A DNA stretch of 64,000 nucleotides from NCBI RefSeq assembly GCF_001865995.1, contig NZ_MLQQ01000040.1, forward strand, positions 186,001-250,000, in the 5' to 3' direction. Under the pieces are notes generated by a model, which was not told where the DNA came from, searched no databases, and saw only the letters and a program-made list of their open reading frames with translations. Numbering within the stretch: position 1 is the first letter of the stretch; each line of letters begins with the position of its first letter. This DNA comes from Anaerobacillus arseniciselenatis. Lineage in GTDB: Bacteria; Bacillota; Bacilli; Bacillales; Anaerobacillaceae. The position numbers and the translations under genes are program-made. Shown here one piece after another: positions 47,600 to 64,000 of the stretch.

Positions 47600-47682
47600 C
47601 TACTGCCAGCTCCTTTCTATTTTTCAATTTATTATATTCTATTAATTTCGATTGATAGATAGAACTAGAAATTTCTTTTATT

Positions 47683-47875
47683 AATTTATAATTTACAATT
47701 TAAAATTATTTTGTGGGTGGTCGTGGTGGTTTTTTAGTTTTGAATGTTGAGTCTTTGGTGGGTAGTTCAGTGGTGTTAGTGTTGAGTTTTGAGTTTTGAG
47801 TTTTGAGTTTTGAGTTGCGTTGTTGGTAGTTCAATGGTGTTTTTTTTAGTTATTAAGTGGGTGGTTCTTGAATTA
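47683..47875. repeat. Family E AT-rich word repeat, copy 5
   Basis: TTATAATTTACAATTTAAAA then several TTTTGAGTTTTGAG words. Gap 47600-48103, no gene seen. Confidence 0.7.
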
Positions 47876-48028
47876 TTTTTGCAGATTTTAGTTTACATTA
47901 ATTTATAATAATTTGTGGTTGTAGGACTGATTAAATGATTTTGCTTATATCAGTAGTAAAACTCTATTAATATAAATGTATCATAGATAAGGAGAAAAAG
48001 AACAAGACATTTGTCGGTTTGTTCTTAT

Positions 48029-48061
48029 GAAAAAAGAGCACGAATATAAAATCCGTACTCT
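48029..48061 (-). terminator. Terminator of the pilus operon after pilO
   Basis: GAGTACG/CGTGCTC hairpin then TTTTTT on the minus strand. Confidence 0.85.
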
Positions 48062-48103
48062 AATGAGTTCTTCTAATAGATTACTTATATTTTCACAATT
48101 CTT

Positions 48104-48790
48104 TTAATGATTGTAAAGTGGATTTTCTCTTTCGCGAGGTGCTGGATGAATAACTTTCGGTAATTCATCTTTTAATTGTGGTAGATGTGGGTAGTAGTAG
48201 GCGCTGACAGTGACTAAAAACTCGAGAATATCAGTTTCGTCATCAATCATCACTCTTTCATCTGTACCAATAAATGAGATAGAATCAATCCCGATAATCC
48301 GTGGAAGGCGATCGATTTCTGATAAAAATTGAAACAGCTCTTCATATGAGTTTGCGCGAACTGAGAAGTTTACCGTTATTTGTTTTAAACTAGCACTATC
48401 TTCAGCCGCTTCCCCAGTATTCTCATCGCCCTCTTCAGTTTCAATGAACACCGCATCACGATTTTGGTCAATATCGATTGATAATATATACGTATTCGAA
48501 AGTGCTTCTACTCGTTGAAAATCTAATAAAAGTTGATCGACGAGAGGCTCAACTGGAAGCTTTCGTTGTAAGTAAGTCGTTTCCTCTTCGACTTCTTCTT
48601 CATCATCAAAACTTCTTTCTTCTAAAAGCTGTAACATTTGTTTTTCTGTTTTGAGTTGATTTTCTGCATTCGTTCGTTCATTAAACTTTGGAGAAACTGT
48701 ATAAACATAGCCGCCACTCAATAACATCATAACAATGATAACACCAACAATGAGGGTGACTATTGCTTTTTTCGTAAAAGAGATGTTCAT
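48104..48790 (-). CDS. pilO: Type IV pilus assembly protein PilO-like
   Basis: 228 residues. One N-terminal membrane helix (VTLIVGVIIVMMLLSGGYVY), a coiled coil, and a PilO-type ferredoxin-like domain with PVEPLVDQLLLDFQRVEALSN and ITVNFSVRANSYEELFQFLSEIDRLPRIIGID. With PilM and PilN it forms the assembly platform at the membrane. Start ATG abuts the pilN stop (TAAATG). Confidence 0.88.
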   Translation of the reverse strand: MNISFTKKAIVTLIVGVIIVMMLLSGGYVYTVSPKFNERTNAENQLKTEKQMLQLLEERSFDDEEEVEEETTYLQRKLPVEPLVDQLLLDFQRVEALSNTYILSIDIDQNRDAVFIETEEGDENTGEAAEDSASLKQITVNFSVRANSYEELFQFLSEIDRLPRIIGIDSISFIGTDERVMIDDETDILEFLVTVSAYYYPHLPQLKDELPKVIHPAPRERENPLYNH

Positions 48791-49369
48791 TTAGTCTTCC
48801 TCCTTTACGGAAAATGCTGAACGGTCAACAACGAGTTCAAAATTGGCAACGTATCGTGGTAAAAAATCATTTTCTCGTTCTTCAACGAGTTCAATCGTCT
48901 CTGTATTGACACTATATAAGCTCACCGACGAAATAAGGGGCGATTCGTTTAAAGCAAAGTGATAGGCTGCTACTGAACTTATTTGATCAAAGTACACTTG
49001 AAAAGAAACTGTGTCAGGATGGTTGAAATCAAAATTATTAAAATAGCCGTATTCCGGTAGTAAATAAACGAGCTCTCTTAAAAGCTCAGAAGATGGAATA
49101 ACACTGGTCTCTGTTCTTTCAACCAACTCTTTTAAATATTCATAATGAGAAATTGGCTGTTCATCCAACATTTGTTGGAGTGTTGCTATTTGTTCCGTAA
49201 CTGTTTGGCGTTCGGCATCAATTTGTTCAATATCATTTTGAACGCTATCATGAACAAATTTAAGAGAAGCAACACCAATAAGAAGTATGCTTATAATAAT
49301 TGCTACAATAAGGTAATATGTAACGTCTTTTTTACGTTTTTCGGTAAGTAAATTAATTTCAACTAACAT
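48791..49369 (-). CDS. pilN: Type IV pilus assembly protein PilN-like
   Basis: 192 residues. The short cytoplasmic tail VEINLLTEKRKKD is the conserved PilN segment that docks into PilM, followed by a membrane helix (YYLIVAIIISILLIGVASL) and a coiled coil. It overlaps pilM by 11 bp. Confidence 0.9.
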   Translation of the reverse strand: MLVEINLLTEKRKKDVTYYLIVAIIISILLIGVASLKFVHDSVQNDIEQIDAERQTVTEQIATLQQMLDEQPISHYEYLKELVERTETSVIPSSELLRELVYLLPEYGYFNNFDFNHPDTVSFQVYFDQISSVAAYHFALNESPLISSVSLYSVNTETIELVEERENDFLPRYVANFELVVDRSAFSVKEED

Positions 49370-50357
49370 CGTAAACCTCTTTTTTTAAGGCAAGTCCAAC
49401 TACTTCGTGAAAACGAATTGGCACTTGCTCACCATTGATCGTTTCGACATCTTTATCATGAAGCATCTCAACAGAAATATCAAATGTTTGTTTGCAGCTA
49501 GTAGCGACTTTTTCTAAGTACGGATAATCACCCGTTAAAAGCATTTTAGTAATGCCTAGGTTTCCTTGATGAACGGTTGAGCGATAAAAGTTCATGATCC
49601 GCTCTAATTCTGTGATTATATCTTGAACTTGTCCATTAATTTCTGCTTCAGTACCTTGCCAAACGCTTCCTTCTGAAGCTTCATTAATTAATTTCCATTG
49701 ATCTTCGTCAATTGAAAGCTTAATGTTACGCATAAAAATCGGTTTCTGGTCGTGGAAAATCGTAATGTTCATTTTTAATATATCTAGTTGCACGAACAAA
49801 AAATGATCTGACTTGTTATCACGATCAAGTTCGTGAAAAAGTCGGTAATATGATAATGCTGAGATGTCGGCAGCATTCGGTTTGAGTTTTGCTGTTTCTA
49901 GTAGATCGGAAAATTGTTGCACCATATTTTCAGGTGCAGCAATTAGCAAAATATCACGCTGACCATCGCGTTCACCTAGGTCATGGACGTCTAACGCTGG
50001 CTCGTCAAAAGGTAAATGAATTGATGCACCGATGACTGTATATAAGTACCCTTTAAGCTCGTCTTTTTTGACGGTAAGTGGTACTTGTTCTTTACGTAGT
50101 ACTGTATAATCATTCGGGACAATGAATTGAACGTGATGCTTTTTTATGCCCCATTCATGAACACATTGCTGTAAAATGGCTTCTAACGTATCTGGCTCTA
50201 AAATCTTTCCATCACGAACAACCCCTTGTGGCAAGTACCTTTCGCCAAAGGAGTGAATAGCTGTTAATTCAGGACGTTTCGCATGGACGAAGCGAATGAC
50301 ATGATCCTTGATTATAATTGCTGTTCGCGCTTGTTTTTTACTTGGAAATAGTGCCAT
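49359..50357 (-). CDS. pilM: Type IV pilus assembly ATPase-like protein PilM
   Basis: About 332 residues. Actin-fold cytoplasmic protein linking the pilus motor to PilN/PilO. Begins MALFPSKKQARTAIIIKDHVIRFVHA; includes SYYRLFHELDR and KMLLTGDYPYLEKVA. The true start is probably the ATG at 50357; the longer frame begins with GTG in its own ribosome site. Confidence 0.87.
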   Translation of the reverse strand: MALFPSKKQARTAIIIKDHVIRFVHAKRPELTAIHSFGERYLPQGVVRDGKILEPDTLEAILQQCVHEWGIKKHHVQFIVPNDYTVLRKEQVPLTVKKDELKGYLYTVIGASIHLPFDEPALDVHDLGERDGQRDILLIAAPENMVQQFSDLLETAKLKPNAADISALSYYRLFHELDRDNKSDHFLFVQLDILKMNITIFHDQKPIFMRNIKLSIDEDQWKLINEASEGSVWQGTEAEINGQVQDIITELERIMNFYRSTVHQGNLGITKMLLTGDYPYLEKVATSCKQTFDISVEMLHDKDVETINGEQVPIRFHEVVGLALKKEVYDVS

Positions 50358-50385
50358 AGTGTTCACCACGATTCTTTTTTCTAAT

Positions 50386-50440
50386 TTAAAATGGACAATT
50401 TATAATTTATAATTTAAAATTTAAAATTTAAAATTAAAAT
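50386..50440. repeat. Family E AT-rich word repeat, copy 6
   Basis: TTTATAATTTATAATTTAAA with TTTAAAATTAAAATGG between pilM and the peptidase gene. Otherwise the gap 50370-50586 shows nothing clear. Confidence 0.55.
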
Positions 50441-50586
50441 GGGACGCAAGAGAGTTGATTTAATGCTAAAGAGTCTACCACGCATTTATAGTGGTACACA
50501 TACTAATGTGACAAAGTAATGTCACTATCTATACTTTAAAAGCTGTCACTTTCAATTTTAACAAACCTAACCAACCAACCAACCAA

Positions 50587-51348
50587 CTACCCAACAAAAA
50601 ACAAACTCCAATACCAATTTAAAATTTCAGTTTCAAAAAAGTAAACTAGTAATGTAGCCATAACAATGTATGGACCGAATGGAATTGGTTTGCCGCGTTG
50701 CATTTTTTTTGTTGCTAATCCAATTATACCAATAATAGACCCAATTAAGGTAGAGAGAAAAAATGCGAGTAAGACGCCTTGCCATCCTAACACAATTCCA
50801 ATGACAGCAAAAAGTTTAATATCGCCACCACCCATGCCCCCTTTACTAATGACGGCAATCGCTAATAGGAGAATAAAACCGATCGCAGCACCTAATAAAG
50901 GATCCCACCAAACTTCAAGTGGTGCAATTGTATAGCGGAGGATTAGTAGTATTGGTGCAAAGAAAAGCAGTACTTTATCTGGAATAATCATGTAATGAAT
51001 GTCCGAAATGAAAACGATAACGAGTAATGAGATAAAAACCAAAGCAACAATCGTTTCCCATTGGAAGCCGAAATGATAGAAAGCATACACAAATAAGCCA
51101 CCAGTCGCAGCTTCAAAAAATGGGTATATAGGCGAGATTTTCGTCCCACAGCCTTTGCATTTTCCTTTTTGGAAAAGATACGAAAAAACCGGGACCAACT
51201 CCAGCGTCGATAAGGTTCTTCTACAATTAGGACAATGCGAGCGTGGCCGAACAATTGACTCATTTTTCGGCACCCGCAAACCGACAACGTTGAAAAAAGA
51301 CCCTAGGATTAGGCCTAGGGTGAGGGTGTAGAGGTAAATGTATATCAT
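50587..51348 (-). CDS. pilD: Prepilin peptidase/methyltransferase (PilD/ComC)
   Basis: 253 residues. Membrane aspartyl peptidase that cuts prepilins after Gly. Two CxxC pairs in the N-terminal zinc loop (Cys39, Cys42, Cys64, Cys67), which go with methyltransferase activity, and catalytic Asp residues in SDIHYMIIPD and GGGDIKLFA. About seven further helices. Occupies the comC position next to spoIIB and should also serve competence pseudopilins. Confidence 0.95.
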   Translation of the reverse strand: MIYIYLYTLTLGLILGSFFNVVGLRVPKNESIVRPRSHCPNCRRTLSTLELVPVFSYLFQKGKCKGCGTKISPIYPFFEAATGGLFVYAFYHFGFQWETIVALVFISLLVIVFISDIHYMIIPDKVLLFFAPILLILRYTIAPLEVWWDPLLGAAIGFILLLAIAVISKGGMGGGDIKLFAVIGIVLGWQGVLLAFFLSTLIGSIIGIIGLATKKMQRGKPIPFGPYIVMATLLVYFFETEILNWYWSLFFVG

Positions 51349-51380: not shown

Positions 51381-51791
51381 TTAATCTCTATCAAAAGTTA
51401 CGTTCCCAGCAGAACCCGAGGCAGTTCCTTCACTATACTCTATGGTAACTTCAGGAACATTGTCTTCAAAAGTAACTGACCACTCCGGAACTGTTGAATC
51501 CCAAGGGTCATTTAGGTCGCTTTCAATAAACTCTGCAATTGCCTTCCCCTCATCAGTATCATCAACATAAGTACCATTTGGAACATTATTAGAAGCAGCA
51601 TACAATCTGGATGCACTCAACAACATTTCAGCATTTGCAACAGCTGCATTTTCTCTGCTTTTTTCGATGATACCAGCAATACTTGGCACCGCAATTGCGG
51701 CTATTATTCCCAAAATAACTACTACAGCGAGTAGTTCAATCAACGTCAAACCTTTTTGGTTTTTTAATCTTTTTAATAAAAGTTGTCTCAT
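51381..51791 (-). CDS. pilA: Major type IV pilin
   Basis: 136-residue prepilin. Class III signal NQKG with cleavage after Gly14, mature N-terminus LTLIELLAVVVILGII with Glu at mature position 5, then an amphipathic helix and an acidic 90-residue globular part ending GNVTFDRD, with no cysteine pair. Strong ribosome site AGGAGGAG. The highest-expression pilin by context: alone between pilC and pilD with its own 650-bp upstream region. Confidence 0.93.
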   Translation of the reverse strand: MRQLLLKRLKNQKGLTLIELLAVVVILGIIAAIAVPSIAGIIEKSRENAAVANAEMLLSASRLYAASNNVPNGTYVDDTDEGKAIAEFIESDLNDPWDSTVPEWSVTFEDNVPEVTIEYSEGTASGSAGNVTFDRD

Positions 51792-52440: not shown

Positions 52441-53646
52441 TTACCCAACGGCATCAAAAATTTCGAACATCGGCATGGCAATGGCTGCGACGATAATACC
52501 GACGATGCCGGCAAGGACGACAATCATCAGAGGTTCGATTAATGATTTAATTCGTTCGGTGGCCGTGTCTACTTCTGTTTCGTAAAATTCAGCGACTTTA
52601 TCTAGCATCGTATCTAAATTACCCGTTCTTTCACCGACGTAAACCATTTGTGTCACTAACGGTGGAAAAATCCAATGGGCTTCCATCGGCCCTGCAATTG
52701 ATTCACCTTTTTCGAGTGAAGTACGTGACTGGCGAATGACCCTAGCAACAACTTCATTCCCAACGATCGTTTCGACGATCGAGATCGCTTGTAAAATCGG
52801 AACTGATGAAGAAAATAACGAACTTAACGTTCGAGTCATTCTCGCAAGAGCTGCTTTTTGGAGCATTGTTCCGAAAACCGGTATTTTTAAAATGAAATAA
52901 TCAAAATAATATTTGTACTGAAGATTGTCTTGGATCAATTTATAACCAATAACCTTCGCGATCACAAAGACAACGAGTAACCACCAAAACGACTTAAAAA
53001 CATCTCCAGCTGAAAGCACCATTTGCGTAATCAGCGGTAGCTCGGCATCGAAGGAACGAAACATATCCGCAAACGTCGGCACGACAAATGATAATAAGAA
53101 AACGACAACAACGACGGAAATCGCGCCGATCACAGCTGGATACATAAGTGCTGAAATCACTTTTTGCCGTGTTTGATATTGTTTTTCGTAGTAATCGGCA
53201 AGACGTTCTAATATTTCGTCTAAGTTACCGCCAGCTTCACCGGCTTTTACCATGTTCGTAAACAGTGGCGGGAAAATTTTTCGATTTTTTTCAGCGGCCT
53301 CTGAAAACGGATTACCGGCACGAAGTTCTTCTTCAATCGCTTTTAAGGCACTTTGCAGCTGTTTTGAGCTTGTCTGATCTCCTAATATTGCCGTTGCATC
53401 AACGACAGATATACCTGCTTTTAAAAGCGTTGAAAACTGCCGTAAATAAATAACGAAATGCTGCGGCTTAACTCCACTACCGATGGAAATATCTTTATAA
53501 AGGATGCCTGTTAATTCTTCCATTTTACGAACGTGGATCCCCTCGGCTTTTAGTTTTTCACGGGCTTCTCGCTCTGTAAAACTTTTTAAACGTCCTTCGA
53601 CAAGCATTCCGTATTTATCTCTACCTCGATATTTAAAATAAGCCAT
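52441..53646 (-). CDS. pilC: Type IV pilus platform protein PilC
   Basis: 401-residue membrane protein, GspF fold, with two repeated cytoplasmic domains (FVIYLRQFSTLLKAGI...; ALARMTRTLSSLFSSSVPI...) and three helices. It transmits motor motion to pilin subunits. Start overlaps the pilT stop by one base (TAATG). Confidence 0.94.
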   Translation of the reverse strand: MAYFKYRGRDKYGMLVEGRLKSFTEREAREKLKAEGIHVRKMEELTGILYKDISIGSGVKPQHFVIYLRQFSTLLKAGISVVDATAILGDQTSSKQLQSALKAIEEELRAGNPFSEAAEKNRKIFPPLFTNMVKAGEAGGNLDEILERLADYYEKQYQTRQKVISALMYPAVIGAISVVVVVFLLSFVVPTFADMFRSFDAELPLITQMVLSAGDVFKSFWWLLVVFVIAKVIGYKLIQDNLQYKYYFDYFILKIPVFGTMLQKAALARMTRTLSSLFSSSVPILQAISIVETIVGNEVVARVIRQSRTSLEKGESIAGPMEAHWIFPPLVTQMVYVGERTGNLDTMLDKVAEFYETEVDTATERIKSLIEPLMIVVLAGIVGIIVAAIAMPMFEIFDAVG

Positions 53647-54686
53647 TACGAATTCAACTCACTTACGTACGGACGAGCAACCTCTTCTAAAATACGCTTT
53701 TGTTCTAAAAGCTCTTTGATCGACATTTCTAACGTATGCATCCTAGATGCTTTGCTCGTTTGCATAACACTATGGATTTGATGGATTTTTTCGTTACGTA
53801 TAAGATTCTTAATCGCTGAATTGTTAATTAAAATTTCCGTTGCTGCAGCTCGTCCTTTTTTATCTGCGGTCGGTAAAAGGCGCTGTGAGCAAATTGCAGC
53901 TAACACAGAAGCAAGCTGAATTCTCACTTGCGGCTGCTGATTCGGGGGAAAGACGTCAATAATTCGATCGATCGTTGCTGGCGCATCTGTTGTATGTAAC
54001 GTTCCTAAGACGAGGTGCCCAGTTTCAGCAGCAGTTATCGCTGTTGAAATCGTTTCTAAATCACGCATTTCTCCGACTAAAATGACATCAGGATCTTGGC
54101 GCAGGCAAGCCCGTAGTCCGTTGGCAAAGTTCTGTGTATCAAAACCAACTTCACGTTGATCTATAATACAAAGACGATGTTTATGCAAATATTCAATCGG
54201 ATCTTCTAATGTAATAATATGCTTTCGATACGTAGAATTCATATGGTCGATCATTGCAGCTAATGTCGTTGACTTACCACTTCCGGTAGGTCCGGTAACG
54301 AGAACAAGCCCTTGTGGCTTTTTCGCGACCTCTTTTAAAACGTTTGGCATTTTTAACTGCTCAAGCGTCGGGATCGATGTTGGAACGACGCGGATCGCCA
54401 TACTAATGCATGAGCGTTGAAAAAAAGCGTTAACACGGAAGCGTGATACTCCAATTAACCCGTAAGAAAAATCGAGCTCCCCTTTTTTTAAAAACGACTT
54501 CCAAAGCGTTTCAGAAATAATTGCTTTTGCCATTCCTTCTGTATCATCCGGCAATAACTTCTCTTTGCCGTATTGCTTTAACTCCCCATTAATCCGCATG
54601 ACAGGAGGAACTCCAACTGTTAAATGTAAATCAGATGCACCGTATTCAAAGGCTGCTTTTAATAATGCTTCTAACTTTTGTTTCAT
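53646..54686 (-). CDS. pilT: Pilus retraction ATPase PilT
   Basis: 346-residue hexameric ATPase that retracts pili. N-terminal PAS-like part with GASDLHLTVGVPP, Walker A GPTGSGKST, Asp box ITLEDPIEYLH, Walker B VGEMRDLET and His box LHTTDAPATIDRIIDVFP. Presence of PilT implies retractile pili and twitching. ATG 54686 follows AGGAGGG, 13 bp after pilB. Confidence 0.96.
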   Translation of the reverse strand: MKQKLEALLKAAFEYGASDLHLTVGVPPVMRINGELKQYGKEKLLPDDTEGMAKAIISETLWKSFLKKGELDFSYGLIGVSRFRVNAFFQRSCISMAIRVVPTSIPTLEQLKMPNVLKEVAKKPQGLVLVTGPTGSGKSTTLAAMIDHMNSTYRKHIITLEDPIEYLHKHRLCIIDQREVGFDTQNFANGLRACLRQDPDVILVGEMRDLETISTAITAAETGHLVLGTLHTTDAPATIDRIIDVFPPNQQPQVRIQLASVLAAICSQRLLPTADKKGRAAATEILINNSAIKNLIRNEKIHQIHSVMQTSKASRMHTLEMSIKELLEQKRILEEVARPYVSELNS

Positions 54687-54699
54687 TTTTTCGTCCCTC

Positions 54700-56358
54700 C
54701 TAATCATCAATGGCAACACGTAAAATTTCTTCTACTGTCGTTAAACCTTGTTTTACTTTCAATAATCCATCGTCAATGAGAAAAATCATTCCATTTTCCA
54801 TAGCATAATCACGGATCGCTGAAGTTGATTGATTGTTCATCATCATTTGGCGAATATCATCGTCAACAACGAGAATTTCTTGGATCGCTACACGCCCTTT
54901 ATAACCAGTCGTATTACAAACGCCGCACCCTTTACCGCGATACGTTTTGCCAACTTTCATACCACGACGTACAAATAAGTTTTTTTCCATTTCTGTAGGC
55001 TCATACTCCTCACAACATTCACGGCATATTTTTCGGACGAGGCGTTGCGCAACAATTCCTGAAAGTGACGATACAACTAAAAACGGTTCGATCCCCATAT
55101 CAATCAGTCTTGGAATCGTCGCAATCGCGCTATTCGTATGCAACGTGCTTAAAACTAAGTGCCCAGTTAAAGAGGCCCGGATCGCAATTTCGGCGGTTTC
55201 TGTATCACGTATTTCTCCGACCATGACAATGTTCGGGTCCTGGCGGAGAATGGAGCGTAACCCAGTTGCAAACGTTAAACCGACATTTGAATTCACTTGC
55301 ACTTGGTTAATGCCTTCAATTTGATACTCGACAGGATCTTCTACCGTAATAATATTTACTTCATCACTATTTAAGTGATTGAGAGCTGCATAAAGTGTTG
55401 ATGATTTCCCTGACCCCGTCGGACCAGTAATTAAAATAATTCCCGATGGCCGTTTAATTAAATTTAAAAAATGTTCGTAATTAATTTTATTAAAGCCAAG
55501 CTGAGATAACTTGTTTAGGGCATTCCCTAAATCTAAAATACGGATCACTATTTTTTCCCCGTAAACGGTCGGTAACGTTGAAATACGTAAATCAACCGAC
55601 GTAAAATCTAGGGTCACTTTAATACGACCGTCTTGCGGAAGTCGAGTTTCAGTAATATTTAAGTTCGCCATAATTTTCACACGTGCTATTAAGACATTTT
55701 GTAATGACTTCGGTAATGCTCGCTCGGTTTTTAAAACACCGTCTACACGGTAGCGTACAAGAACTTTCTTTTCTTGCGGATCAATATGAATGTCACTCGC
55801 CTTTTGTTGCAACCCTGTTAATAAAATTTGATTGACGAGGCGTATTGCCGGAGCATCGTCCTCACCTGTAGCACGATCAGTAATATCTCCTTCAAGGTCA
55901 TCGGACAAAATTTCTTTCATAGATTCGTCTAAAGAATAATGTTTATTAATCGCCTGCAAAATTTCTTCTTTGGAAGCGATGACTTGCTTGATTTGAAAAC
56001 CTGTTGACATTCTTAAATCATCGACCGCGATGTAATCCATTGGATCCGCCATCGCAATGAGTAGTTCATCACCGTTCTTTTTTAAAGGGATTAAAATATT
56101 TCTTCTAGCCACTTCTTTAGGAACCGTGTTCATTAACGTTGTATCAATCGGATAACGATGTAAAGAGATGTGTGGAATCCCGAGTTGAAATTCTAACACT
56201 TCGATCAATTGCTGTTCAGTTATATAGCCACGTTCAAGTAGAGCATCGCCTAGTTTTTGACCTCTTTTCTTGTGTTTTAACGTTTCTACTAGCTGCTGTT
56301 GTTTCAATATCCCTGCTTCAACGAGTAGATCGCCTAACCGTTTTCGTTGTTGTGCCAT
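54700..56358 (-). CDS. pilB: Pilus extension ATPase PilB
   Basis: 552-residue extension motor. The N-terminal MshEN-like region holds two tandem copies of the motif R/K-L-G-D-x-L...G (RLGDLLVEAGILKQQQL and KLGDALLERGYITEQQL), known elsewhere to bind c-di-GMP. Then Walker A GPTGSGKSS, VEDPVEYQIEG, VGEIRDTETAE and a zinc four-Cys element (CRECCEEYEP...GKGCGVC). ATG 56358 follows GGGGTATTT; a family A repeat lies directly upstream. Confidence 0.95.
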   Translation of the reverse strand: MAQQRKRLGDLLVEAGILKQQQLVETLKHKKRGQKLGDALLERGYITEQQLIEVLEFQLGIPHISLHRYPIDTTLMNTVPKEVARRNILIPLKKNGDELLIAMADPMDYIAVDDLRMSTGFQIKQVIASKEEILQAINKHYSLDESMKEILSDDLEGDITDRATGEDDAPAIRLVNQILLTGLQQKASDIHIDPQEKKVLVRYRVDGVLKTERALPKSLQNVLIARVKIMANLNITETRLPQDGRIKVTLDFTSVDLRISTLPTVYGEKIVIRILDLGNALNKLSQLGFNKINYEHFLNLIKRPSGIILITGPTGSGKSSTLYAALNHLNSDEVNIITVEDPVEYQIEGINQVQVNSNVGLTFATGLRSILRQDPNIVMVGEIRDTETAEIAIRASLTGHLVLSTLHTNSAIATIPRLIDMGIEPFLVVSSLSGIVAQRLVRKICRECCEEYEPTEMEKNLFVRRGMKVGKTYRGKGCGVCNTTGYKGRVAIQEILVVDDDIRQMMMNNQSTSAIRDYAMENGMIFLIDDGLLKVKQGLTTVEEILRVAIDD

Positions 56359-56390
56359 ATAAATACCCCGTTTATTAATTAAAATTAATT

Positions 56391-56507
56391 GAGTGAATTT
56401 CATAATTACCTTAATTAAGCCATATCAAACAATATGAAGTTGTGAGCGGTTTAACGAAACTACATCTAGGTACTTAATGGCGATAATATTGAATTATGAA
56501 ATTCATT
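56391..56507. repeat. Family A repeat, copy 6
   Basis: Full-length form, about 117 bp, with TGAATTTCATAATT and AATTATGAAATTCA ends; sits between the first VanW-like gene and pilB. Confidence 0.85.
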
Positions 56508-56524: not shown

Positions 56525-57892
56525 TTAATATCCTTTCGTTGGTTCTTCAAACATTTGATCGTCATCATCGCTAATGTCATCCTCACTGTCACCAGGGCCT
56601 TGACCAAGTTGTGAAGTTTCGGCCTCACCGTTATCCACAACTTCCGAACCGCCATTTTCACCATTCCCATCGGTGATCGATGATGCATTTTCCTCATCAC
56701 CAATTGTCCCTTCATTTCCTAATGGGGGATTTTCCGTTGGTCGATCTTGTAAACTCCAAAGCTCAATACTATGAACAGGAGGATAAAAGTCTTCAAATAA
56801 TCGTTGTTCATTTATGAGTTGACTGTTTTCTATACTTCTTTGTTGGCGGTATACTTCAACAAAATAGCCATTTTCACCATTGTTGATTACTTGACGGTAA
56901 CCACTTCTTTTCTCATTAGAAAAACGAACAATATTTCGCGATTCAATCTCTCGTTCGTTTTTCGTCACAGCAGAAAATAAGTAAGGGAAAGCGATACCTT
57001 CTAACGTAACTGTAAGTTGCCCCGCCTCATAAGCGAGAAATAATGTATACGGATAATAATTAATATTTTCAACAATTAAATCAGCAAAATCAGGTTTTAC
57101 AATGGCATCAAATCCTAACTTAGCATAAGGTGGTAAGTTCTTACCGATATGGCGTTCTCGTATTAAAAAATTCGTTTGTAAAAATGCTTCGTAAAGTGCT
57201 GTCGCTAACACATTTAACGATTCACCTTCAACAACGACTGCCCCCTTTCCTTGCATTTGTTGTAAAAGTGAAAAAGTCTCTCGAGCGTCAATAACGATGC
57301 CATTTAAGTTGTTCGCCCATTGCTCAAGCAAAAGTGTACTTTCAATATTGGAAATGACGGTATGAGCAACTTGATCAGTTTCATGCTGCTGAGCTACATA
57401 TTCATTTAAATCTATGTACAGAGAAGTAGTCGAAAGAGTAGCTGCATGACTTTTGACAAGCTCTTGTACTGCTTCAACTCGAACTTCATCATTAGGGATT
57501 TCATAAGAAAAGCTCTCAACAGCTTCAGTAATCACAGCTTCTGGGATTGAATTGTATAACATAGTGCTTCCTGCATCTAACATTTGTAAACTTTCGGAAA
57601 CGAAAAATTGTACATGAGTTGCTGGAACTTCAACCAGTTCGTCAAAATAAACAAACTTATAATTCGTACTGTTTACCCATTTTTCAATTTCCCCTTCTAG
57701 TTTTTCCTCGGCTTCCTCTATCGTTAAGCCACTCATTGGTACTGAACCGACAAACGTACCTTCAGGAAAATAATTATCTTTCGGGAAATACGTTTCAATC
57801 GCCTTCCCACCACCAAAGGAGAATAAAGCTATAAATGTTGTACAAAAAAAAATGATTAAAAATGCTCTGAAAAATAGCCGAACATTATTCAC
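56525..57892 (-). CDS. VanW-like cell-envelope protein, paralogue 1
   Basis: About 455 residues. Membrane helix near the N-terminus, then a repeat-like domain (GSVPMSGLTIEEAEEKLEGEI) and a VanW-type domain (about 197-294: DARETFSLLQQM, NVLATALYEAFL, IRERHIGKNLPPYAKLG). The usual VanW GGxCQVST stretch is replaced by NVLATAL, so the Cys is missing. The C-terminus is a Gly/Asp/Glu-rich tail ending KGY. GTG 57892 follows GAAAGGAG and is preferred over the ATG 16 codons earlier. Lies in the pilus operon; probably exported and wall-associated (inference). Confidence 0.78.
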   Translation of the reverse strand: MNNVRLFFRAFLIIFFCTTFIALFSFGGGKAIETYFPKDNYFPEGTFVGSVPMSGLTIEEAEEKLEGEIEKWVNSTNYKFVYFDELVEVPATHVQFFVSESLQMLDAGSTMLYNSIPEAVITEAVESFSYEIPNDEVRVEAVQELVKSHAATLSTTSLYIDLNEYVAQQHETDQVAHTVISNIESTLLLEQWANNLNGIVIDARETFSLLQQMQGKGAVVVEGESLNVLATALYEAFLQTNFLIRERHIGKNLPPYAKLGFDAIVKPDFADLIVENINYYPYTLFLAYEAGQLTVTLEGIAFPYLFSAVTKNEREIESRNIVRFSNEKRSGYRQVINNGENGYFVEVYRQQRSIENSQLINEQRLFEDFYPPVHSIELWSLQDRPTENPPLGNEGTIGDEENASSITDGNGENGGSEVVDNGEAETSQLGQGPGDSEDDISDDDDQMFEEPTKGY

Positions 57893-57941
57893 GCTTTTTC
57901 TCCTTTCTTTATTTAAAGCTTCCGACATTAATATCGGCATA

Positions 57942-59033
57942 CTATAAATCTTTTTCTAGCTGCTCAAAAAGCTTCGTTCTTTTCTTGAGAACAGATTCCT
58001 TTTGTGATTGTTTATCTTCAGCTGGATTTTGTTTTTGTTTATGTTCAGTTTTCATGTCAACTTTTTGATCGGGCATTAAACTTTCTTGCTCATCATCTTT
58101 TTTAACTTCTTCAATTTCATCGATCAAACCACGGTCATCTATAATGAGTTCCGCTTCTTCAACGATTTCATCATCATCTTTGTGATCGTCTTCTTCGATA
58201 CTTAACTTTCGTGAACTAGCTTCGTAAATATTAGCAAGATCATCTTGATCAGAAAAATCTCCAAGGTCATATAGTTCAATTTCATCCGAAGTAGATAAGT
58301 CATCTGAACTTTCTTGTGGGGTGATTTCATCGTTATTTTGTGAAAGATGCACCTCGTTCTTCTCGATTGTTTCATCTTTATTCATAGTTCGAGGCTTTGA
58401 TTCTATTTCGTGTTCAATTAAAAATTGCTCAATTGCATCTTCAATTTCGTTGGTGAGTTCTGTTTCGTTTTGATCAAAATTTGTGACATTAGTTACACTC
58501 ACTTTTAAGGCTTCACTATTTAACACATTTTCTTCATTCGAAAATAAAACATCAACTACGACCTCATCGTCTCCCGCACCTTCACAGCTAAGTTTAGTGC
58601 CCACATCTTGTTCTTCCAACTTTTGCTTTTCGGCTTTTAAAATTGCATCTATGCTCGCTTGATCGAGCCTTCCGAAAACAGCTTGTTCTCCTACTGCCTC
58701 TTTTGACGGTTTCACTTCTACTACCGGAGGATTAACAGAACTATCTTCTGCTTTCCCAGCGTTTTTCGAGGGTGGCGGAGTTTTGGAAATTTGCGATTTC
58801 GAAAACTCTCGTTGCTTAGAAATTACAAAAGAAAAAAATAGTAGTAAAAACGTAAAAGCAGTTATTGCAATATAAAACGGATAAAACGCATGAAGTAAAT
58901 TCGTTAATACAAAAATCAATAAAGAAATAAACACAATTTTAATTAATATTTTTGTACTTAATTTTAATGGTGACACAACGAGTAAAGTCCACAGCAGCAC
59001 AGCTGCAAGAATTGCTAAAATATATTCAATCAC
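57942..59033 (-). CDS. Membrane protein with long acidic disordered tail
   Basis: 363 residues. Three N-terminal hydrophobic segments (about 2-22, 27-48, 50-72) and then 290 residues very rich in Glu, Asp, Ser and Lys, with no fold visible, ending QLEKDL. GTG start after AAGGGTG. Between the prepilin-like gene and the first VanW-like gene in the same direction, so probably part of the pilus module, maybe a scaffold. I do not recognise it; the tail is likely cytoplasmic or outside depending on topology, which I cannot decide. Confidence 0.7.
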   Translation of the reverse strand: MIEYILAILAAVLLWTLLVVSPLKLSTKILIKIVFISLLIFVLTNLLHAFYPFYIAITAFTFLLLFFSFVISKQREFSKSQISKTPPPSKNAGKAEDSSVNPPVVEVKPSKEAVGEQAVFGRLDQASIDAILKAEKQKLEEQDVGTKLSCEGAGDDEVVVDVLFSNEENVLNSEALKVSVTNVTNFDQNETELTNEIEDAIEQFLIEHEIESKPRTMNKDETIEKNEVHLSQNNDEITPQESSDDLSTSDEIELYDLGDFSDQDDLANIYEASSRKLSIEEDDHKDDDEIVEEAELIIDDRGLIDEIEEVKKDDEQESLMPDQKVDMKTEHKQKQNPAEDKQSQKESVLKKRTKLFEQLEKDL

Positions 59034-59148
59034 CGATGAATCACCCTTTACGATAGCACTATGTCTTATTACCTATAATAGTAATACATTTTGAAACTGA
59101 TTAATATTAAAATATATGGCGGCATTTTAAAAATTTTTATATTAAAAC

Positions 59149-60462
59149 TTAATAGCTATAATTATAATTTGTTTCAGGTGTTAATAGTTCCCAATCCCAT
59201 TCAGGATAAAGAGTTATCATGTCTCGATCACCAATCGAAACACCACTGCAGTTTGCTTCGAAATCTTCGGAGGAGGTGTTAACTAGATTTGGCCTATTAG
59301 TAGTATTAGCAAAGATATTTGCACCGGAAACGTTATTCCCATTTATCTCTAAGTGGCCTTCTACACATATTCTTGAACTATTATCAACTGTCACATTGTT
59401 CATCGTTGCATCCCCACCAGTATAAACCGTACTATTATTGTTAAAAGAAATGTTATTGCCTTCAAAATCAGCATTTTGGCCAACATATATGATTGAATTA
59501 CTCGCATTTTGAATGTTCCCAGAAAAAGTCGCTGAACCCAATATTTCTATAATGGAATTAAAAAGACTATTCATATTACTATCGATCGTCGCATCTTCTT
59601 CAACATGCAGTTGTAAATTCGTTGTTCTGTTCATATTTTTTGTCGTAAATTCTCCCTCGACATAAATGAGTGAATTTGTAAAACGGTTTGTATTACTCTC
59701 TAATAAAAATGACTCAGTTACATGCAATGTAGAACCATTTAGTGTATAATTTCCTCTAGGAATTTCTATAGTTCCATTATAAGAACAATTCGTATCATCC
59801 TCATCAGTACAAGTTGGTAATCCTGTCGGTTTTGAAATTAAACTCCCATCAAAAGTTCCATCTCCTGGTGTCGTACCGTTTCCACCACCATTACTTCCAT
59901 CTTCATCTCCAATGTTGATGTTAATAAAGGCATCTATAGGAATATTAATAGTAGTTTCCAACCCAACGATCTTTATATTATTACTTCCTTTACTAACAAA
60001 ATTAAATTTCAACCCATTTTGATCCTTTGTAACTGTAACATTATCACTTTCAATATCAAAATAATGCTGCAATTGTTCGTTTACATGCATTGGTCTTGTA
60101 GTCAAAGTTGGAATATCGACTGTTACTTTCCAAACATCAGCAATAATCCCTCTCAAAGTAGATATCTTTTCTTCATCCGTTAAAGTATCAAAATCGTCGA
60201 CCTTATCTATCTCCTTCTGAATTAAATCAGCAGTAAAAGGATCTTCTAAAACACTCTCAATAGCATCTAATATCAATGTATGATAATGTACAACACCCAT
60301 CTCTGCTAACGTAGTAGCTTGAACATTATCTTCGGACATATTAATTTGACGATAAGAGGTTAGAGCATTGCCAGCTAACATGATAAATAATAATGAAAAA
60401 ATTGTAATCATAATTAACACTAAAACAAGTGCATAACCTTTTTGATTATTGTGTTTTTTCAT
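59149..60462 (-). CDS. Prepilin-like protein with beta-solenoid-like tail
   Basis: 437 residues. N-terminus MKKHNNQKGYALVLVLIMI resembles a PilX-type class III signal (cleavage after Gly9) but lacks the Glu at mature position 5. Then a helical part, a Gly-rich linker (SNGGGNGTTPGDG), and from about 215 a run of short strands rich in Asn, Thr, Ser and Ile (LIYVEGEFTTKNMN, IIEILGSATFSGN, IIYVGQNADFEGN, TVYTGGDATMN, RICVEGHLEINGN), spaced about 18-22 residues like rungs of a beta-solenoid. A possible pilus-tip subunit or adhesin. Cys pair in PTCTDEDDTNCSY. Overlaps closely with the minor pilin gene upstream. Confidence 0.75.
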   Translation of the reverse strand: MKKHNNQKGYALVLVLIMITIFSLLFIMLAGNALTSYRQINMSEDNVQATTLAEMGVVHYHTLILDAIESVLEDPFTADLIQKEIDKVDDFDTLTDEEKISTLRGIIADVWKVTVDIPTLTTRPMHVNEQLQHYFDIESDNVTVTKDQNGLKFNFVSKGSNNIKIVGLETTINIPIDAFININIGDEDGSNGGGNGTTPGDGTFDGSLISKPTGLPTCTDEDDTNCSYNGTIEIPRGNYTLNGSTLHVTESFLLESNTNRFTNSLIYVEGEFTTKNMNRTTNLQLHVEEDATIDSNMNSLFNSIIEILGSATFSGNIQNASNSIIYVGQNADFEGNNISFNNNSTVYTGGDATMNNVTVDNSSRICVEGHLEINGNNVSGANIFANTTNRPNLVNTSSEDFEANCSGVSIGDRDMITLYPEWDWELLTPETNYNYSY

Positions 60463-60468
60463 TAATTA

Positions 60469-60972
60469 TCACCCTCTAATTTTAGAAATAATCGTTTCTA
60501 CTTCAACTTGGGAATTGATATTTTCTCGATCAGTAATAACAATTTTTATAGGTAAATCAATTCTATTAGGAAATACTTCTATATAATGTTTTTCATCAGA
60601 AAGATAAGAAAAAATATAATCATCTTCATTGTCTACTTCTTGTAATTCCAATCCACCGCTTGTGTATAGTGAGTAAAAATATTTTGTATTCGAAAAAGTA
60701 CTAACCATTCCCGGACTCTCAATTGTAATTTTCGTCCCATTTGGATTATTATCGATAATGATCGTGTAATTTTCGGGGGCTGTTTGATGAATTCTCGTCA
60801 ATGACGTAATAAATAAATTCGCTTCCTGTTGCATAAATGAAGTGTTTTTTAAACGATCCGAATAATTTAACCCTTGGAATAATACTGCCCAAATAACTGT
60901 TATAACAATTGAAAAAATGGCCATTGCTAGCAATAATTCTACTAATGTCATCCCTTTATCTGTTTTTAGCAT
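60469..60972 (-). CDS. Minor pilin, PilW-like
   Basis: About 167 residues. Prepilin signal TDKG with mature MTLVELLLAMAIFSIV and Glu5; the rest is a small beta-rich domain. ATG 60972 is one base after the previous stop (TAATATG), so coupling is likely. Longer frame to 61008 overlaps the upstream gene. Minor pilins prime pilus assembly; closest type by context PilW or ComGF-like. Confidence 0.82.
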   Translation of the reverse strand: MLKTDKGMTLVELLLAMAIFSIVITVIWAVLFQGLNYSDRLKNTSFMQQEANLFITSLTRIHQTAPENYTIIIDNNPNGTKITIESPGMVSTFSNTKYFYSLYTSGGLELQEVDNEDDYIFSYLSDEKHYIEVFPNRIDLPIKIVITDRENINSQVEVETIISKIRG

Positions 60973-60973
60973 A

Positions 60974-61465
60974 TTAGTTGCCACCATTCCTATAAACAAT
61001 ATAGCCATATAGCTTTGTTAGTTCACGGCTGTCATCATCCTGTACAACAGTTGCCTCAACTTTATACAGTTTGCGTACATCACTTAACTCTGGCTCTTTA
61101 TTTATTTTAATTGAAATTAATAATCCTTGCCTTTTAGTTAATAAAAGATAATAATTTTCATCTACATCGATATCCTCTATTAAATTTAGCGAAATGTAGT
61201 AAGGGTTATTTTGATCATAAATATTAGTAGGCTGTGGATTCGTATTCAAATTATTAATAAACTTGGGACCAAAATCATTTTGAACAATCACAAGTTGTTG
61301 CTTTGCTACATTCACAGCTCTCATTTTTTCATCAGTTATTTGATTAAATGTTCCTATTTGAGGAAAAAAAGTTAAAAACGCGATAAAAACAATTGTTAAA
61401 ATAGAAAAGGCAAGTAGCACCTCTAATAATGTTAATCCATTATGATTTTTAAGATATTTTTCCAC
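60974..61465 (-). CDS. Minor pilin, PilV-like
   Basis: 163 residues. Prepilin signal NHNG, mature LTLLEVLLAFSILTIV with Glu5. The following domain is strand-rich (YYISLNLIEDIDVDENYYLLL). GTG start at 61465 with only a weak upstream site. First of the minor-pilin trio. Confidence 0.82.
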   Translation of the reverse strand: MEKYLKNHNGLTLLEVLLAFSILTIVFIAFLTFFPQIGTFNQITDEKMRAVNVAKQQLVIVQNDFGPKFINNLNTNPQPTNIYDQNNPYYISLNLIEDIDVDENYYLLLTKRQGLLISIKINKEPELSDVRKLYKVEATVVQDDDSRELTKLYGYIVYRNGGN

Positions 61466-61657
61466 GTTTCAACACCATACCTTTTCTTTTAAGAAGCCAG
61501 TCGCTATCGTTTATAATCTTATTTTCCTATAAAATAATAAATAATTCTATCGTTTGTGATAAAAATGTTTTCTCTTATCACGTTACGATATGCTTTCTTA
61601 TGATAAAAAGGAACTGGGATAACAATTCCCAATTCCTTTTCCATTTAATTACGCTAT

Positions 61658-62821
61658 TTAATACCCCTTGCCACCACTGTCATGTTCCGCACTTTGACGT
61701 CCGTGCACTTCAATGCTAGCTACAGGAAGATAAACATCATAAGAGATCCACTCTTTCTCCGAGTGACCACTCGCCTTTTGACGAACACGATGGACAGTAA
61801 TTTCTTGGCCATATTGACCTTGTTGTTTAATTGTCGTCCCTACAACCTTGTCATCGGATTCAACGATTTTTTCGTAATCGATTGTTTCGCGATTCGATAG
61901 TTCGATGCTATACGTATCTTCAAACGGTATTCCTGTTAATGTCGCTTTTAATGCATGTTCTTCAATTTCAAAGCTTAAAACGTAAGAAGTTGCATTCGGA
62001 TTGTAAATCTTTAAATCCTTTTCCCTATCAACTCTTGCTTCTAAACCTAACTCGCTATACGGTGGAAGGGTCGAACTAATATGTCTTTCTTTAATCTCAA
62101 TATTTGTTTCCAACATTAGCTGATAAATAGCGGTTGCAATGACACTGTACACTTGATCATTAATGGAATCATTTCGGTTTACTCTTAAAACCTCAGCAAA
62201 GGAGAATTGTTGTTTCGGCTTTAATTGAAAATCGTCAAAGAATAGTACCGCTTTAATTAGCCTATTCGTTTTAAATACGTTCGCAAGTTCTACAGTAGAG
62301 ATGATTTTTTCTTCTTCCTCTAAATAGTCATGAACATTAATAATTAAACGCCCTATTTGCAACGTTTGCCCGTATGTACGTAGGTCTTCATGAAGTGACG
62401 CCCAGTCTAAGTTGACTAGTTCTTTTTCTCGAGTTAATTCGTGAATAACGTTTGATACGTAATCGTCGTTAACATATACTCGTAAAGGCCAGCTAGTGCT
62501 ATTGCTTTTGTTATTTAATGTTTCTTCAATATCAAAGAAAAATAGCTCTGCACTACTAACATTGACTTCTCGATCTTTATAATAAAAAGAAACTATCGTC
62601 GTATCTTTCCATTTGGTTACTTCAGTTTCTAGCTTTTCCATCGCAATACTTTTCGGAAGTTCGCTTATAGAAATGCCTGAAACAGTAACACCTTTTTTTA
62701 TGTCTTGTTTAAAAGAATCAAAAGTATAAGATATACCGTAAACAAAGACGATTAGAAATAAAGTACTAATCGTCAATGTCATAAAAGGGAATATTGCCTT
62801 ATTTAAATATTTGGAAGCCAT
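61658..62821 (-). CDS. VanW-like cell-envelope protein, paralogue 2
   Basis: 387 residues. Same plan as the protein at 56525: membrane helix (MTLTISTLFLIVFVYGI), repeat-like domain (GVTVSGISISELPKSIAMEKLE), VanW-type core (about 195-290: KPKQQFSFAEVL, SVIATAIYQLML, IKERHISSTLPPYSELGLEA), lacking the Cys of classic VanW, and a C-terminus ending KGY. The two are collinear over most of their length, so they arose by duplication. 18 bp after the PRC-barrel gene, in the pilus operon. The acidic tail of paralogue 1 is missing here. Confidence 0.78.
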   Translation of the reverse strand: MASKYLNKAIFPFMTLTISTLFLIVFVYGISYTFDSFKQDIKKGVTVSGISISELPKSIAMEKLETEVTKWKDTTIVSFYYKDREVNVSSAELFFFDIEETLNNKSNSTSWPLRVYVNDDYVSNVIHELTREKELVNLDWASLHEDLRTYGQTLQIGRLIINVHDYLEEEEKIISTVELANVFKTNRLIKAVLFFDDFQLKPKQQFSFAEVLRVNRNDSINDQVYSVIATAIYQLMLETNIEIKERHISSTLPPYSELGLEARVDREKDLKIYNPNATSYVLSFEIEEHALKATLTGIPFEDTYSIELSNRETIDYEKIVESDDKVVGTTIKQQGQYGQEITVHRVRQKASGHSEKEWISYDVYLPVASIEVHGRQSAEHDSGGKGY

Positions 62822-62839
62822 TTAAAGTGCCTCCTTATT

Positions 62840-63616
62840 TTATTCTTCTACATTCATTGATAATTCGACCATTCCAGATGGACCGTCATTGTGAACAGCT
62901 AAAATAAGATCTTTCGTTAGCTCTGTTCCGTTTTTAATAAGAAGTTCCCCTGATTTATTGTAAATATCAGAAGTAACCTTCTTTCCTTCTAAAAGGGTGA
63001 TTTGTCGCTCTAAAAATGCTTGAGAAATATCTTCTTCCTCTTCTTTTTCAACTGCAACTTCTTCTGTGGCATCTTCTACGGAAGGGATCTTTTCTTCTTC
63101 AATTTTCTTTCCGTTAAAAAGTTCCTCAATATTGTTTAAAAAATATTCATTGGCATCTTCATTTACAATTAAAATATCTTTACCAAATGTGTGTACATGC
63201 TCGCTTGCAAGAACTACTTCTTCGTCTTTAGCTACGTTTAACTGTAATGCGATAATGCTCCCATTGTCTTCGTTAATGAAGTACTCATCGACTTTACCTA
63301 GTAACTGACCTTTTTTACTCATAATACGAGCGCCATTTATTTTAATGTTTTTAGTCACTAAAGTATTAGCAATAGGAATCTCTGTCAAATCAATAATATT
63401 CGTTTCGCTTTCAATCGTAACCGCAAAGTCGCCGACACCGATTACTTTTTTAAACGGTACTGCCTTTACGCTAATTTGCCAATCCTCATGATGAACAGTT
63501 ATAAAATCAATGGTACCGTGTTCAGGATTTACAACTAATGACTTTACTGTTCCTAATTCTTTCCCATCATTGATACTAATGATCGGTAACCCAACTATTT
63601 GTTTACTCGTCTTCAT
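62840..63616 (-). CDS. PRC-barrel domain protein
   Basis: About 258 residues. Two tandem PRC-barrel domains: KQIVGLPIISINDGKELGTVKSL... (1-85) and ARIMSKKGQLLGKVDEYFINEDNGSI... (90-160). Then an acidic linker (EEVAVEKEEEEDIS) and a C-terminal part with GKKVTSDIYNKSGELLIKNGTELT. No membrane segment. PRC barrels are protein-binding modules in RNA processing and envelope assembly. Probably first fully visible gene of the pilus accessory operon. ATG 63616 follows GTGGTGAAA. Confidence 0.78.
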   Translation of the reverse strand: MKTSKQIVGLPIISINDGKELGTVKSLVVNPEHGTIDFITVHHEDWQISVKAVPFKKVIGVGDFAVTIESETNIIDLTEIPIANTLVTKNIKINGARIMSKKGQLLGKVDEYFINEDNGSIIALQLNVAKDEEVVLASEHVHTFGKDILIVNEDANEYFLNNIEELFNGKKIEEEKIPSVEDATEEVAVEKEEEEDISQAFLERQITLLEGKKVTSDIYNKSGELLIKNGTELTKDLILAVHNDGPSGMVELSMNVEE

Positions 63617-63701
63617 TCGTTTCACCACACCTATACGTATTCTTTATTTCAATTTTCCTGACAAAATTATTCACTATATTATTTTACCATGAAATTTGTC
63701 G

Positions 63702-64000
63702 TTAGCTTTGAAAAAACTTTTTTTCAAAGAAAGTAATTTCTTCTTTTATAACCATCTTATTATTATAACGTTGCTTTAACCTGTTTAATAGGGTTTTTAG
63801 TTTGTCAAATTGTTCCGTTTCAATATAATGATCTCGAAGTATTGATGCAAACAAGTAATAATCATTATCGTGTAAACCGTCTTTTGCATGCTCTAATACA
63901 AGTTGTTCGAAATCTTGCGGATGAATTTGTTCTTTATACCATAATAGTTGTCCAACGAGAGTATCCATTAAGTCACGATTTAGCGGTTTAGGAACCGCGT
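63702..64000 (-). CDS. Unknown helical protein, 5' end outside the window
   Basis: The frame is open to the right edge: upstream of the Met at 63968 it reads AVPKPLNRDL without a stop, and no ribosome site precedes that Met. The visible 99 codons are helical (LLWYKEQIHPQDFEQLVLEHAKDG; DHYIETEQFDKLKTLLNRLKQRYN), in the manner of TPR-like repeats. 86 bp upstream of the PRC-barrel start. Not recognised. Confidence 0.6.
   Translation of the reverse strand, partial: AVPKPLNRDLMDTLVGQLLWYKEQIHPQDFEQLVLEHAKDGLHDNDYYLFASILRDHYIETEQFDKLKTLLNRLKQRYNNKMVIKEEITFFEKKFFQS

Follow-up and report, generated by a model that had tools for sequence, protein, structure and literature searches.

The 64,000-nucleotide stretch of the Anaerobacillus arseniciselenatis genome analyzed here (the window) carries, on its minus strand, a complete type IVa pilus locus whose upstream part, from the VanW-like gene next to pilB to a gene for a PRC-barrel protein, encodes two VanW-like proteins, VanW-A (positions 61658 to 62821) and VanW-B (56525 to 57940). 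We consider it fairly likely that these are pseudoenzymes derived from VanW L,D-transpeptidases and that, in the window's order and in some other Bacilli, they serve the type IVa pilus as a dedicated component that docks its machine in peptidoglycan. Their domain make-up, their dedication to pilus loci in the order, the loss of the active site and a probable single origin were obtained by computation. How a type IV pilus crosses or grips the thick Gram-positive wall without a secretin is poorly understood in one-membrane bacteria, and the locus offers concrete candidate subunits in many environmental Bacillaceae as well as a possible natural substitute, a PilO protein fused to a SPOR module.

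Association with pilus loci and loss of the active site

To relate the VanW-like gene to pilus genes, 150 genomes of the window's order were compared. A homologue of VanW-B was present in 97 of them and PilT scored above the cut-off in 110; both were found in 94 genomes, VanW alone in 3, PilT alone in 16 and neither in 37 (Fisher P = 5e-19, only a guide, as the genomes are related). Of the 94 genomes with both genes, 92 have VanW on the strand of pilT and no more than 8 kb upstream of it; in the remaining two (L148 and L149; L and G numbers are our handles for loci and genomes), VanW and pilT fall on separate contigs, and VanW sits next to pilus genes close to the end of its contig. The three VanW-only genomes (L145 to L147) had loci without pilB in which part of the pil set was retained. 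Among named PilT loci, mostly from Bacillaceae, the gene was found upstream of pilB, on the same strand and at no more than 3.1 kb, in 79 of 80, and the exception (L206) begins at a contig end. Locus L215 of Alkalihalophilus pseudofirmus OF4, for example, has the acidic protein, VanW and pilB. These results indicated that the VanW-like gene belongs with the pilus genes, as an earlier note made from the sequence alone had proposed; that note had named, as the outcome that would speak against it, genes occurring mostly without pilB, and this is not what the co-occurrence comparison gave in the window's order. The note had also called the module accessory, a description that does not suit the order, where the VanW-like gene is a usual part of the locus.

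A wider sample of the class (250 genomes, 144 with PilT) was scored from 99 listed rows of at least 47 bits, second pieces being left out. Here, 56 of the 57 matches of at least 150 bits adjoined PilT. VanW was near PilT in 76 genomes, of which 5 have matches of family f50 about 7 kb away; 71 is the safer count because the f50 match that was inspected (L195) is a canonical VanW with Cys on the other strand.

According to the available portions of two papers (PMC12729407 and PMC11986978), VanW has been recognized since 2024 as a family of L,D-transpeptidases with a triad of Cys, His and a small residue, and the statement of the earlier note that VanW is known mainly from vancomycin-resistance clusters is outdated. 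A vancomycin-resistance function was likewise set aside for the copies studied here, since these belong to pilus loci and the family is now known as transpeptidases, although no search was aimed at resistance genes themselves. Matches to the Pfam VanW family (PF04294) in the order fell into two groups, one of full length (mostly 140 to 182 bits) and one restricted to the second half of the profile (about positions 60 to 129), with no more than 42 bits among the matches listed; there were a few broken copies besides. VanW-A (33.7 bits, positions 61 to 129) and VanW-B (34.3 bits; cut-off, 27) cover only this second half (60 or 61 to 129 of 130 positions), and all 63 aligned members matched PF04294 at an E value of 0.01.

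Exactly one invariant Cys column, in the motif GGGICQ, was found in 31 canonical VanW proteins, namely, the genome's own VanW and the 30 best PF04294 matches, which were retrieved with a model seeded by Cys-bearing rows. In 97 pilus copies the same column holds mostly Ser or Asn, and the preceding segment is absent in 95 to 97 of them. The full comparison comprised 158 pilus copies of at least 330 aa, with identical ones counted once (95 from loci of the order and 63 from named loci). The Cys was kept in 31/31 canonical proteins and 5/5 other free VanW proteins, in none of the 158 pilus copies, and in 1 of 14 pilus-locus copies from other families of Bacilli; for the His, the corresponding counts were 31/31, 5/5, 6/158 and 5/14. 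Of the 19 canonical columns that precede the Cys motif, at least 10 are gapped in all 158 pilus copies, in 6 of the 14 copies from other Bacilli and in none of the 5 other free proteins. Conserved fold residues are kept in the pilus copies. Given their invariance and the reported triad, the invariant Cys and His are presumably the catalytic residues, and the pilus copies do not have the pair that would make them VanW L,D-transpeptidase enzymes. Judged by these alignments, the VanW-like proteins of the window are degenerate members of the VanW family that have lost the predicted active site.

The architecture is a membrane helix, a PG4-like domain, half a VanW domain and a G5 domain. VanW-A was read as a transmembrane (TM) helix followed by a degenerate VanW ectodomain in which the active-site Cys and His are absent, and VanW-B as a long TM helix, the three domains (its VanW half also without active site) and a disordered acidic tail. 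The AlphaFold2 model of VanW-B had a mean pLDDT of 86.1, with values of 85 to 98 in blocks over residues 61 to 400. The G5 domain, at about residues 320 to 398, was recovered both by Foldseek (E = 1e-6) and by profile (E = 9e-6); Pfam reported it in 40 of the 63 members, the window copy alone falling below the cut-off (11.3 versus 23). For residues 77 to 186, the three top rows gave a resemblance to part of Ldtfm, a transpeptidase that also has a peptidoglycan-binding domain (Z = 5.9 to 6.5; rmsd, 2.9), the Z values below 8 being too low to stand alone; for PG4 in the window copy, the best Z was the 6.5 to Ldtfm, and Pfam gave no match. PG_binding_4 and full-length VanW both scored above the Pfam cut-off in pilus-locus copies L180, L186 and L187, and L180 also has G5. 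A VIA-align search returned sensible relatives for the PG4 and G5 parts only and none for the middle VanW half, for which it was uninformative. A free VanW protein with G5 also exists (L193).

Origin of the pilus copies and their partner proteins

A tree of 65 rows (32 of the 158 pilus copies, 14 of the 31 canonical proteins, all 5 other free proteins and all 14 copies from other Bacilli) placed the 46 pilus copies in one clade, separate from the 19 free VanW proteins (SH-aLRT, 94). Within this clade, L186 and L187 branched first, followed by L180 to L185 and then by a 38-row clade (support, 100) holding the copies without the active-site segment. The active-site segment is retained by pilus-locus copies of some families that do not belong to the order: Cys and His are both present in L187, Ser and Asn stand there in its sister L186, and L180 to L185 keep most of the frame without the Cys. 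This graded series from enzyme to scaffold, which includes one pilus-locus copy (L187) still having the active site, probably reflects a single recruitment followed by stepwise loss of the active site.

A sample of the phylum (219 genomes) was compared as well. Among the matches listed (146 PilT and 150 VanW rows), all 22 same-contig pairs within 100 kb had VanW 15 to 100 kb upstream of pilT on the same strand, the same arrangement being found in 1 of 7 pairs at 100 to 300 kb and in 3 of 13 beyond; a pair in G469 (about 11 kb, same strand, upstream) was not counted. Outside Bacilli, no VanW-pilT pair less than 5 kb apart was found among the matches listed. The upstream, same-strand position of VanW in these pairs from other Firmicutes suggests an old neighborhood as the source of the pilus copy.

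In the window, each VanW-like gene is accompanied by a gene for an acidic membrane protein. The short type (positions 57942 to 59033) lies beside VanW-B; of the second acidic protein (465 aa in the genome), the window holds the C-terminal end (63702 to 63998), which includes a conserved, helical-looking C-terminal domain. Both acidic proteins have three TM helices, judged from sequence, and a long acidic region or tail that is predicted, from charge only, to be cytoplasmic. The PRC-barrel protein (62840 to 63628; Pfam PRC, 48.3 bits) has no TM segment and in related loci accompanies the long acidic form; its end of about 60 residues after the PRC matches was named by no Pfam model above the cut-off. 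The label "TPR" for the reading frame at 63702 to 63998 was supported by no profile. Among the 30 acidic proteins listed out of 56, Asp and Glu make up 26 to 45% and Lys and Arg 3 to 8%. Of 111 same-order loci, 109 were scored, two being left out for want of pilB or upstream sequence: 36 had VanW, the acidic protein and PRC, 41 had VanW and the acidic protein, 15 had VanW alone and 17 had none, with no other combination. Thus, PRC occurred only with both the acidic protein and VanW, and the acidic protein only with VanW. Moreover, the presence of the long acidic protein's conserved C-terminal domain tracks PRC (both in 35 loci, neither in 72, discordant in 2), and in L250 the acidic and PRC proteins are fused as one protein of 767 aa. 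Since the acidic tail is predicted to be cytoplasmic and the PRC protein has no membrane segment, the two are unlikely to be wall anchors and are probably cytoplasmic partners. The suggestion in the earlier note that the extra genes anchor the pilus in, or pass it through, a thick wall without a secretin therefore holds as the best reading for the VanW-like proteins and not for the acidic or the PRC-barrel protein.

Four of the 17 VanW-less loci (L095, L096, L129 and L141) encode a PilO of 463 to 502 aa, the C-terminal half of which is homologous to the SPOR/SpoIIB-like protein encoded 3' of pilO elsewhere (hhalign probability, 98.2%). When a SPOR model was run over 410 open reading frames matching the PilO model (PilN included), these four alone were recovered (E = 1e-8 to 1e-18), and no SPOR-PilO fusion was found in VanW-bearing loci by the same search; Pfam SPOR was above the cut-off in 2 of the 4. 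SPOR, AMIN and LysM motifs are described, in the portion available of PMC5285504, as targeting denuded septal glycan. The distribution suggests that PilO-SPOR is a natural substitute for VanW in some lineages. The window has its own SPOR/SpoIIB-like membrane protein gene 3' of pilO (46469 to 47599), corresponding to the module fused to PilO in the four VanW-less loci, and the window copy itself has no Pfam SPOR match. The naming of this gene after SpoIIB, a sporulation septum protein, is tentative; SpoIIB and pilus wall docking may share a history.

Proposed wall docking and competing explanations

PG4-like, VanW and G5 domains are all wall-binding kinds, and docking of a secretin-less pilus in the wall is therefore the best inference for the VanW-like protein. 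No match to the secretin PilQ (PF00263) was found in the window's own genome, which is 80% complete, compared with matches in 6 of 14 control genomes, as expected for a monoderm. We infer that the VanW-like protein binds the wall, is positioned within the machine and bears force. It would be held by one helix beside PilN and PilO, and its ectodomain (PG4, half VanW and G5) would reach into the wall and bind peptidoglycan next to the PilM-N-O-C platform. Such a scaffold would dock the machine in the wall, carry the pulling force against retraction and keep a passage for the filament in the absence of a secretin. The acidic membrane protein, with the PRC-barrel protein where present, would be its cytoplasmic partner, and the solenoid prepilin of the locus would form the pilus tip.

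The nearest enzymes are LdtCd4 and LdtCd5 of Clostridioides difficile, which, as far as the available portions of PMC12729407 and PMC11986978 describe them, share the membrane helix, PG4 domain and VanW domain; unlike them, copies of the window type have neither the Cys-His pair nor the active-site segment, possess G5, are tied to pilus loci and would not be expected to cross-link. A second likeness is to FimV/HubP of gammaproteobacteria, for which the accessible parts of PMC12918733 and PMC5285504 give a peptidoglycan-binding ectodomain, a TM region, a long acidic cytoplasmic region and a C-terminal helical domain, FimV serving type IV pili. The acidic protein has a comparable layout (TM region, acidic cytoplasmic region and helical C-terminal domain) with no LysM match. 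FimV membership was rejected: of 36 members searched against NCBIfam and Pfam, none matched a profile named for FimV, and a single one had a weak TPR match. The likeness is thus in layout and not in sequence; the parts would here be split over the VanW-like and acidic proteins, giving two or three proteins instead of one, with LysM replaced by PG4, VanW and G5. On a tentative and rather doubtful extension of the docking proposal, Bacilli would have taken up a disarmed L,D-transpeptidase a single time as a wall-docking subunit; together with the acidic hub and PRC it would reach from the wall into the cytoplasm as a split complex resembling FimV/HubP, and in some lineages PilO-SPOR would have taken its place.

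Parts that bind the wall and fasten a type IV filament machine to peptidoglycan are also described in what was available of PMC5285504 (AMIN domains of PilQ) and PMC9239104 (GspB/OutB of type II secretion), but those are tied to an outer-membrane secretin. In monoderms, the large PilO of Streptococcus sanguinis is a machine part with a possible wall role; Pelicic speculates, in the portion available of PMC6916266, that monoderm PilO may fix the machine to the thick wall or help the filament across it. Here, in contrast, PilO is unfused where VanW is present, and SPOR-PilO occurs in four VanW-less loci. A link between VanW and type IV pili was not found in the open-licence literature as judged from titles and abstract openings; in some of the papers retrieved, the VanW that matched is the name of an author, and VanW was unmentioned in the pilus papers searched in full text. 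The pilus is of a known kind and VanW is a known family; as far as our searches reach within the open-licence literature, the new element is the dedication of a disarmed L,D-transpeptidase to the pilus, together with the alternative of a PilO fused to SPOR.

Descent from a family of cross-linking enzymes, with conserved fold residues kept, would also suit a pseudoenzyme that regulates wall chemistry, binding stem peptides or partner enzymes (active L,D-transpeptidases or endopeptidases) and locally blocking or recruiting cross-linking or cutting to open a hole at the pilus, a regulator rather than an anchor. The full active site of the early-branching pilus copy L187 points the same way, but deletion of the active-site segment in all 158 copies from the order and the named loci does not, and no wall enzyme was recognized among the labeled neighbor genes (of little weight, as unlabeled ones were not identified); we regard such a regulator as unlikely. 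It is less probable still that the protein is a surface adhesin merely coregulated with the pilus. The G5 domain is clear, and, going by titles, G5 of staphylococcal Aap and SasG belongs to zinc-dependent adhesion modules; in the protein studied here, however, there is a single G5 in an ectodomain that one helix holds at the membrane, and the gene adjoins pilB and is lost together with PilT. That loss also argues against neighborhood inertia, in which VanW would be an old neighbor of the pil locus having no pilus function. The 22 of 22 upstream, same-strand phylum pairs among the matches listed and the persistence of one cassette (L192) without pil genes fit inertia, but loss of the active site was confined, among the copies examined, to those of pilus loci, and the pilus copies form a clade of their own; we give inertia very little credence.

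Several observations weigh against wall docking by a dedicated, disarmed VanW protein. In the class sample, 68 of the 144 genomes with PilT had no VanW nearby (73 when the five doubtful matches are discounted), and 17 of the 109 same-order pilus loci had none either (15 if a contig break, L130, and the second locus of G126, L123, are omitted); VanW is therefore not needed by every monoderm pilus. Thirteen of those 17 loci have a PilO of 161 to 316 aa with no SPOR fusion. In G157, the L192 cassette persists where no pil genes remain. The support of the pilus clade, 94, is just below 95, and some branches are long. For the window copy, PG4 is assigned from Z values below 8. Finally, the dead-enzyme claim depends on the catalytic role presumed for the invariant Cys and His, and the canonical rows, as the top-scoring matches, are not a random sample.

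Layout of the locus and its two cassettes

PilB, PilT, PilC, PilD, a pilin and PilM-N-O are all encoded in the single locus, which is what assigns it to type IVa. The gene order that the earlier note gave from the PRC-barrel gene to pilC on the minus strand was borne out, and coordinates can be given for each gene. PRC-barrel and VanW-A are followed by two minor prepilins, one weakly GspI/ComGE-like (60974 to 61465; N_methyl above the cut-off, GspI and ComGE below it) and one at 60469 to 61008 (TIGR02532, 27.2 bits versus a cut-off of 16.3; N_methyl), the prepilin motif scoring above the Pfam cut-off in both. A PilX/GspK-like prepilin (59149 to 60462), a possible tip protein, has a pilin-like head and a beta-helix tail in its AlphaFold2 model, with ComGG and GspK models matching only below the cut-off. 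The model, built from ten sequences (mean pLDDT, 70.8), places a beta-helix at residues 225 to 374 (pLDDT of 76 to 89 in blocks of ten), which backs the prepilin-like solenoid protein of the earlier note. After the short acidic protein and VanW-B come pilB, the extension ATPase with an MshEN domain and a c-di-GMP motif (54700 to 56403; T2SSE, 452.7 bits; MshEN, 74.9; NF053729, 57.9 versus a cut-off of 38), pilT, the retraction ATPase (53646 to 54719; TIGR01420, 482.8 bits versus 319.1), and pilC, the platform protein (52441 to 53646; T2SSF, 225.1 bits). The locus extends farther than that note had it, continuing through pilA, the likely major pilin (51381 to 51791; N_methyl, 33.9 bits), pilD, the prepilin peptidase (50587 to 51348; assigned from sequence and position alone, with homologues in related loci), pilM (49359 to 50369; PilM_2, 62.5 bits), pilN (48791 to 49369; PilN, 21.3 bits, just below the cut-off of 22.8, and position) and pilO (48104 to 48790; PilO, 26.5 bits versus 22), and including the second acidic protein upstream of PRC.

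Because this second acidic protein stands upstream of PRC, the genome has two cassettes, acidic-PRC-VanW-A and acidic-VanW-B, the latter adjoining pilB. The pairing of VanW-like genes, presented in the earlier note as a feature of the module, is peculiar to this genome. Two open reading frames were found in only 2 of 97 VanW-bearing loci, those of the window and L041, and L041 has adjoining pieces of 224 and 261 aa that were taken as one split gene; two VanW proteins as a general trait were thus rejected. In FastTree analyses, VanW-A clusters with two genomes of the same genus (local support, 97) and VanW-B with Anaerobacillus alkalilacustris (support, 100), and by this branching the copies are two lineages side by side. 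The PRC protein shares 73% identity with its counterpart in a genome of the same genus, and among five loci compared the pil genes are closest to those of A. alkalilacustris (L200; PilB, 84%; PilT, 88%). In the likeliest history, an older cassette would have stayed in place and the pil genes on its downstream side would have been replaced. A terminator-like hairpin (61630 to 61609, minus strand) lies 3' of VanW-A, between the cassettes, and there may therefore be two transcription units; it comes from a consensus scan only, which gave 25 such matches in 18 kb versus 11.5 expected. Promoter-like matches were at chance level (65 versus 60.6 expected) and were left unused.

A parallel was seen in G157, where one locus (L191) reads acidic-VanW-pilB and the L192 cassette, about 300 kb from this pilus locus with its own VanW, runs acidic-PRC-VanW and then the SPOR gene, pil genes being absent from the interval. 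G126 has two neighboring pilus loci, L123 and L134, one with VanW and one without. In many related loci, an extra prepilin gene lies between pilO and the SPOR gene (e.g., L054:1782-2237); it was not seen in the window. Beyond the SPOR/SpoIIB-like gene, aspartase-like, maf, radC, mreB, mreC and mreD genes were read without profiles, placing the pilus locus (46469 to 51348 and flanks) upstream of maf-radC-mre. Bacillus subtilis has folC, comC and spoIIB upstream of maf-radC-mre, and its comC may be a remnant pilD of a lost pilus locus.

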